Source: Fibrobacteria bacterium AD312 (lineage in GTDB: Bacteria > Fibrobacterota > Fibrobacteria > Fibrobacterales > Fibrobacteraceae). From it: a stretch of 64,000 bases of DNA. Below, piece by piece: positions 38,258-39,168 of this stretch. The translations under genes were made by a program, and so were the position numbers. Under the pieces are notes generated by a model that was not told the DNA's origin, did not search any database, and saw only the letters and a program-made list of their open reading frames with translations. The stretch covers positions 1-64,000 of the forward strand of contig LIUM01000008.1 in the NCBI GenBank assembly GCA_001462345.1, written 5' to 3'. Each line of letters begins with the position of its first letter. Position 1 is the stretch's first letter.

Positions 38258-38692
38258 ATGAAGACCATTATGGTAAACCCCAAGACAGTGACTCACAAGT
38301 GGAAACTTGTGGATGCTGCGGACAAGCCTATGGGCCGCGTAGCAACTGAAGTCGCTCGTCTTCTTATGGGCAAACACAAGGCTATTTATTCCCCTAACGT
38401 TGATACTGGTGATTTCGTTATTGTTATTAATGCAGAAAAAGTAATGCTTAGTGGCAATAAAATTGATCAAAAAGAGTATTTCCATCACACAGGTCACATT
38501 GGTGGCGAACGTTGGATCAACTGCAAAGATCTTATGGTTAAGCATCCTACTGCGCCTCTCGAAATGGCTATCTGGGGCATGCTTCCTCATACCAATCTTG
38601 GTCGCAAGATGATGAAGAAATTAAAAATCTATGCTGGTGCTGAGCATCAACATGCAGCTCAAAACCCTGAAACCGTCGACTTGAAAGTCTAG
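38258..38692 (+). CDS. rplM: 50S ribosomal protein L13
   Basis: This 144-residue ribosomal protein carries KWKLVDAADKPMGRVATEVA, LMGKHKAIYSPNVDTGDFV, GGERWI and MLPHTNLGRKMMKKLKIYAG, all diagnostic for L13. GAGG precedes the ATG by 7 bases. The 270-base leader holds two overlapping TATAAT hexamers (38111 and 38120) as probable promoter elements. It is followed after 17 bases by rpsI, the near-universal rplM-rpsI operon. Confidence 0.97.
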   Translation: MKTIMVNPKTVTHKWKLVDAADKPMGRVATEVARLLMGKHKAIYSPNVDTGDFVIVINAEKVMLSGNKIDQKEYFHHTGHIGGERWINCKDLMVKHPTAPLEMAIWGMLPHTNLGRKMMKKLKIYAGAEHQHAAQNPETVDLKV

Positions 38693-38709
38693 GAACGGAG
38701 GATAAATCT

Positions 38710-39114
38710 ATCGCTACTGCAAAAGCAAAAAAGATCTACCGTGGCACAGGTCGTCGTAAGAACGCCATCGCCGCTGTTGTTTTAAGACCGGGTTCCGGCA
38801 AGCGTGTTATCAATGGTCGTGATTTTAAGGAATACTTCCATTCTGACGTGCAAAACATGATCGCTAATTTACCATTTGCCATTCTTGAAAACGCTGAAGA
38901 ATGGGACGTTGAAGTCACCGCTCGTGGTGGTGGAATCGCTGGCCAAATGGGGGCTGTTCGTTTAGGTATCGCTCGCGCTCTCGTCGCTAACGATGCTGAA
39001 GTCAAACCTGCTTTGAAAAAAGAAGGCTTAATGACTCGTGACGCACGTGCTGTAGAACGTAAGAAGTTCGGCCGTAAAAAGGCTCGTAAACGCTTCCAGT
39101 TCTCCAAACGTTAA
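38710..39114 (+). CDS. rpsI: 30S ribosomal protein S9, apparent AUC start codon
   Basis: The S9 reading frame is complete: (I/M)ATAKAKKIYRGTGRRKNA at the start, NGRDFKEYF, TARGGGIAGQMGAVRLGIARAL, and the invariant C-terminus KKFGRKKARKRFQFSKR that reaches the P-site tRNA. Between the rplM stop and this frame there is no ATG, GTG or TTG. The only codon at proper distance is ATC at 38710, 8 bases after a perfect GGAGG (38697-38701), and it is followed by the usual ALA-THR of S9. The first in-frame ATG is at 38848, in the middle of the conserved core, so it cannot be the start. Either AUC initiates translation or a G-to-C error lies in the sequence. Length is 134 residues. Confidence 0.9.
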   Translation: MATAKAKKIYRGTGRRKNAIAAVVLRPGSGKRVINGRDFKEYFHSDVQNMIANLPFAILENAEEWDVEVTARGGGIAGQMGAVRLGIARALVANDAEVKPALKKEGLMTRDARAVERKKFGRKKARKRFQFSKR

Positions 39115-39140
39115 TCGTTTACAACGCATTTCAAAAAAGA

Positions 39141-39168
39141 AACGCCTTCTATGCAAGGCGTTTTTTTT
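39141..39168 (+). terminator. rho-independent terminator after rpsI
   Basis: AACGCCTT-CTATGC-AAGGCGTT followed by a T run, 26 bases after the S9 stop. Confidence 0.85.

Follow-up and report, generated by a model that had tools for sequence, protein, structure and literature searches.

The rplM–rpsI locus

The window analysed here, a stretch of 64,000 nucleotides from Fibrobacteria bacterium AD312, contains the adjacent genes for ribosomal proteins L13 and S9, and the features of this locus are as follows.

38258 to 38692, + strand: rplM (L13), the first gene of the operon, with an AUG start and a TAG stop at 38690-38692 (open reading frame list and NCBIfam TIGR01066)
38696 to 38719, + strand: putative hairpin of Shine-Dalgarno (SD) sequence and start codon (pairing of conserved leader columns)
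38697 to 38701, + strand: SD GGAGG of rpsI (from the sequence)
38710 to 38712, + strand: AUC start codon of rpsI (aligned with the AUG or AUU of relatives)
38710 to 39114, + strand: rpsI (30S ribosomal protein S9/uS9; NCBIfam NF001099, E 4e-50)
39135 to 39168, + strand: intrinsic-terminator-like hairpin 3' of rpsI, closing the rplM–rpsI operon

The rplM stop and the ATC of rpsI are separated by 17 nt, and the second gene runs from GGAGG through eight nucleotides to ATC, GCT ACT (Ala-Thr), the S9 body and a TAA stop at 39112-39114. The ATC-initiated protein, its C-terminal SKR tail intact, is matched by the NCBIfam S9 model from residue 7 to the end, and rpsI is present in the genome as one copy.

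Evidence for an AUC start

AUC, which meets the initiator anticodon with a C-C mismatch, is among the rarest of bacterial start codons. The original prediction of an AUC start at 38710 drew on an S9 frame without ATG, GTG or TTG back to the rplM stop, and on a perfect GGAGG eight nucleotides before an ATC that is followed by Ala-Thr, all of which is borne out. Going upstream from the ATC, the S9 frame reaches a stop after only 13 open codons, the first ATG, GTG or TTG in this frame is a GTG at codon 46, beyond the conserved GTGRRK, and ATC 38710 is the sole AUN codon with SD spacing in the interval from the in-frame stop to the S9 body. On its sequence rpsI would therefore qualify as a gene with an IF3-discriminated start, defined as initiation at AUU, AUC or AUA with no usable NUG codon.

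Within the part of the genome scanned, rpsI stands out. A scan of 0.77 Mb (about 27% of the genome, 509 predicted genes) for genes that have no canonical start but do have an SD sequence and a near-cognate codon gave rpsI as by far the strongest case, with a score of 13.8 against 6.8 for the runner-up, and so lent no support, within the part scanned, to genome-wide use of AUC starts. Nearly every gene in the S10/spc-type ribosomal region of the same genome starts with AUG. Fibrobacteraceae genomes that possess the leader 17-mer CGGAGGATANNNCTATC have it once each; all 15 matches in the family are rpsI leader sequence, and 14 of these adjoin a mapped S9 match, the fifteenth sitting at a contig end (G001).

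Start codons of rpsI across the phylum

Comparison with relatives, which place the window in Fibrobacteraceae, shows the same state at the same place, with ATC in most of the Fibrobacter genomes compared and ATT in the Fibrobacter intestinalis group, which includes the isolate ATCC 43854 (L072). AUC is found in most genera of the family Fibrobacteraceae, and conservation extends to a second family of the class (f3), in which 8 of 10 genomes have AUC or AUU after a strong SD sequence and no canonical start nearby; in G048, for example, the frame reads TAA CAG GAG GAT ACC ATT ACT. The AUC or AUU is accompanied by GGAGG or a near variant of it. Canonical in-frame starts upstream of these codons are confined to a distant TTG in genus g7 and to G047, where they lie 36-59 codons away. 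A sequencing or assembly error hiding a true ATG had been put forward as the main alternative and, with a draft assembly of 50 contigs, had some footing, but it is excluded because AUC or AUU recurs in dozens of independent assemblies, among them that of ATCC 43854 and the one-contig genome G017; what probability it retains is negligible.

S9 could also be made in another way, by readthrough or frameshifting from L13 to give a fusion, or from an internal start. Beyond the adjacency of rplM and rpsI nothing was found in favour of such a route. In the S9 frame of nearly all AUC/AUU genomes the nearest upstream stop is 4-14 codons away, G047 being an exception, and in L220 and L213 the distance is just 4-5 codons. 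How the L13 frame relates to that of S9 varies, and the distance between them is not conserved (18-27 nt within the family), so there is no conserved fusion by readthrough or frameshift, and starting internally, at codon 46, would remove conserved parts of S9. We consider these routes very unlikely. The AUC start is thus well supported by elimination and conservation, and rpsI is most probably translated from it with initiator fMet-tRNA; its regulation, by comparison, we infer.

AUG starts do occur at rpsI in relatives, a finding that the original prediction had named as one that would speak against AUC, but they are confined to lineages whose leader has also changed. They are seen in Fibrimonas (g5), g8, G014 of g4, one Fibrobacter clade, the sister family f2, two f3 genomes and f4, often with a weaker SD sequence. 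On a tree of rplM plus rpsI with 83 distinct rows, the root and deep order of which are uncertain, the AUG/AUY state has changed at least six times. The Fibrobacter AUG clade (L005, L033, L047, L048, L054, L057 and L067; support 100/100) is a reversion, since it is enclosed by AUC genomes, and in it GGAGAAAACTATG replaces GGAGGATACCTCTATC and the leader motif is lost. AUG has evolved several times, and the device must therefore be dispensable. Outside the class, the start of rpsI in 29 genomes (L226, L227, L229-L231, L290-L313) is UUG in 28, GUG in one and AUG in none, which suggests avoidance of AUG at rpsI throughout the phylum.

A near-frozen leader and a putative hairpin

The original prediction was right about the codon but missed a conserved leader around it, along with a possible SD/start-codon hairpin and a possible coupling to rplM. 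Parsimony changes were counted in 50 AUC/AUU genomes of the family on a tree of length 4.1. The leader CGGAGGAUA-N4-UAUY is near-frozen, with 0-1 changes per site, and its conservation is established. Positions 38696-38704 and 38709-38711 (-14 to -6, -1 and the start) changed once or not at all, four of the five SD bases being unchanged and the fifth having changed once, and the third base of the start codon also changed once, from C to U. Four-fold codon sites in the same genomes changed 7.5 times on average, and none of 142 was unchanged; the rplM leader, taken as a control, shows mostly 1-12 changes per site, and 1-9 at -14 to -6. The motif is absent from the AUG lineages, and no Rfam family matches the rpsI leader. 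AUC/AUU is kept across many genera in an RNA that barely changes, and is therefore a real feature and probably a regulatory one; the pattern suggests that selection has kept the codon together with a perfect SD sequence.

The conserved columns can be drawn as a hairpin, which we regard as likely but unproven. In it CGGAGGAUA would pair with UAUY-R-CU-A-CYG and so hold both the SD sequence and the start codon, through the pairs (last three digits of the position) 696-719, 697-718, 698-717, 699-715, 700-714, 701-712, 702-711, 703-710 and 704-709, with a loop at 38705-38708 and bulges at 38713 and 38716. In the 50 genomes the paired columns have 0-1 changes, whereas the loop bases changed 5, 5, 2 and 2 times and bulge 38713 three times. 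The four invariant bases of the eight-base spacer are the four that would be paired, a coincidence with a chance of 1 in 70, to be read with the fact that the hairpin was spotted in the same data. Overall 97% of cells are paired, and both variable pairs go from G-C to G-U; compensatory double substitutions number zero. An AUG or AUA start abolishes the hairpin in silico. Folding energy was rejected as evidence for the structure, as it is not significantly below that of a matched null keeping the SD sequence, start codon and protein (fraction of the null at or below the observed value 0.05 to 0.48), and the minimum-energy fold of an 81-nt segment lacks the hairpin in favour of another structure. 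A sign test of AUG against the hairpin on the tree had three independent pairs only, and so no power, and in f3 genomes AUC persists although the hairpin there is only partial.

The unremarkable energy is what would be expected under passive tuning, the main rival to the model set out below, in which the AUC is real and a weak codon combined with a strong SD sequence simply fixes a constant S9:L13 ratio, with neither sensing nor feedback, the leader being a tuned ribosome-binding site. The pairing of perfect SD sequences with AUC/AUU and of often weaker ones with AUG fits this well, as does the UUG in the rest of the phylum, which would reflect a general avoidance of AUG at rpsI. It does not account for the invariance of the AUA after the SD sequence and of the U preceding the start, given that the four bases in between vary. 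We regard it as a realistic possibility, although not the one that we favour.

The leader might instead be an operator, bound by L13 or S9 as a repressor of rpsI, with AUC fixed as part of the binding site. A near-frozen element of 24 nt would suit such a role, and L13 of Escherichia coli is known to repress rplM-rpsI by binding the 5' UTR (PMC10931766), but it acts there at the rplM leader and not between the genes. The lack of an Rfam match at the rpsI leader and the retention of AUC in f3 without the same element also count against this explanation, and we think it improbable.

Initiation stringency as a possible signal

The reading that we favour, at about even odds (roughly 50%), is that an inefficient start with a perfect SD sequence has been selected so that S9 synthesis would be low, coupled to rplM and responsive to the stringency of initiation. 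In E. coli systems IF3 discriminates against AUU, AUC and AUA (PMC4611024). Reading of AUU by a CAU anticodon gives little product, and less still as IF3 rises, the combination of AUC with CAU having been omitted from that titration (PMC10158994). The C-terminal tail of uS9 reaches into the P site, and in yeast it influences the fidelity of initiation (PMC6344880); the same paper, through its reference 50, attributes such an effect to the tail in E. coli as well.

In the proposed mechanism AUC or AUU is an inefficient codon, disfavoured by the initiation machinery, from which new ribosomes would start rpsI poorly, and the SD sequence may fold back onto the start codon (GGAGGAUA...UAUY together with the Ala-Thr codons). 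A ribosome ending rplM 17 nt upstream would melt this element, thereby supplying S9 in step with L13; such coupling would be natural because the terminating ribosome would sit over the element's 5' half. Residual initiation would then follow start-codon stringency, which IF3 and the S9 tail in the P site determine, and the outcome would be a negative feedback loop on S9 with a logic comparable to that of infC. Dependence of S9 synthesis on the level of IF3, as the original prediction had suggested, is plausible by analogy. The fuller version, in which S9 controls its own synthesis through start-codon fidelity, with ribosomes short of S9 or of its tail accepting AUC, those bearing S9 rejecting it, and a hairpin that requires AUY adding the coupling to rplM, is considerably more doubtful.

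The infC gene of E. coli, which encodes IF3, starts with AUU and is under autocontrol. It resembles the present case as a gene of the translation apparatus whose AUH start is discriminated against by IF3 and evolutionarily conserved, and whose product influences the choice of start codon, but here the gene is rpsI and not infC, the product is S9, the codon is AUC or AUU and autocontrol is putative. The infC of this genome (L140, G000:C46:56450-56941; further loci L111-L139) has, like most Fibrobacterota genomes read, a conserved TTG start with an SD sequence rather than AUU. The analogy to IF3 is only partial as a result, and here no AUU loop acts on IF3 itself.

E. coli rplM-rpsI shares with this locus its gene order, its two-gene operon and the co-regulation of S9 and L13, but its autogenous control by L13 is placed in the rplM 5' UTR (PMC10931766), whereas the element here lies between the genes, at rpsI. 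Ribosomal protein leader RNAs, such as the Bacteroidia L13 leader (PMC7247131), are likewise conserved RNA elements in ribosomal protein operons, but the present one is only about 24 nt, overlaps the SD sequence and start codon, and is without an Rfam match; the Bacteroidia paper contains no Fibrobacter motif. Searches of open-licence papers found no description of rpsI starting with AUC.

What stands out is that AUC has become fixed over many genera in an essential ribosomal protein gene whose expression is presumably high; the sampled rest of the phylum has UUG or GUG. This offers a natural system in which to study start-codon stringency as a cellular signal, and were autoregulation by fidelity to hold, rpsI, a ribosomal protein gene, would sense the stringency of initiation as infC does, and would have kept this role across a class of bacteria. 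In practical terms, gene callers restricted to ATG, GTG and TTG will truncate or miss S9 of Fibrobacter.

Initiator tRNA and a second candidate start

A special initiator tRNA that reads AUC was considered and rejected, as the tRNAs read include a single initiator gene, with the anticodon CAU. This tRNA has an unusual extra C in its T-stem (GCAG-C-GTTCAAGTCCTGC), giving a T-arm of 18 nt instead of 17 (G000:C29:4910-4984, that is L210 111-185 and L235; further loci L236, L248, L251, L254, L334-L337 and L340). The insertion occurs in nearly all sampled genera of Fibrobacteraceae and is absent from Fibrimonas, f2, f3 and the other classes. It was rejected as a cause of AUC starts, being absent in the f3 AUC genomes and present in the AUG genomes G014 and G033.

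A possible second near-cognate start is an ATT seven nucleotides after AGGAG at G000:C46:62433 (minus strand; L175), which opens a frame of 542 codons with a lipoprotein-like signal peptide (INRAWVYILLIFFTCLGCFD) and with its first canonical start only at codon 34.
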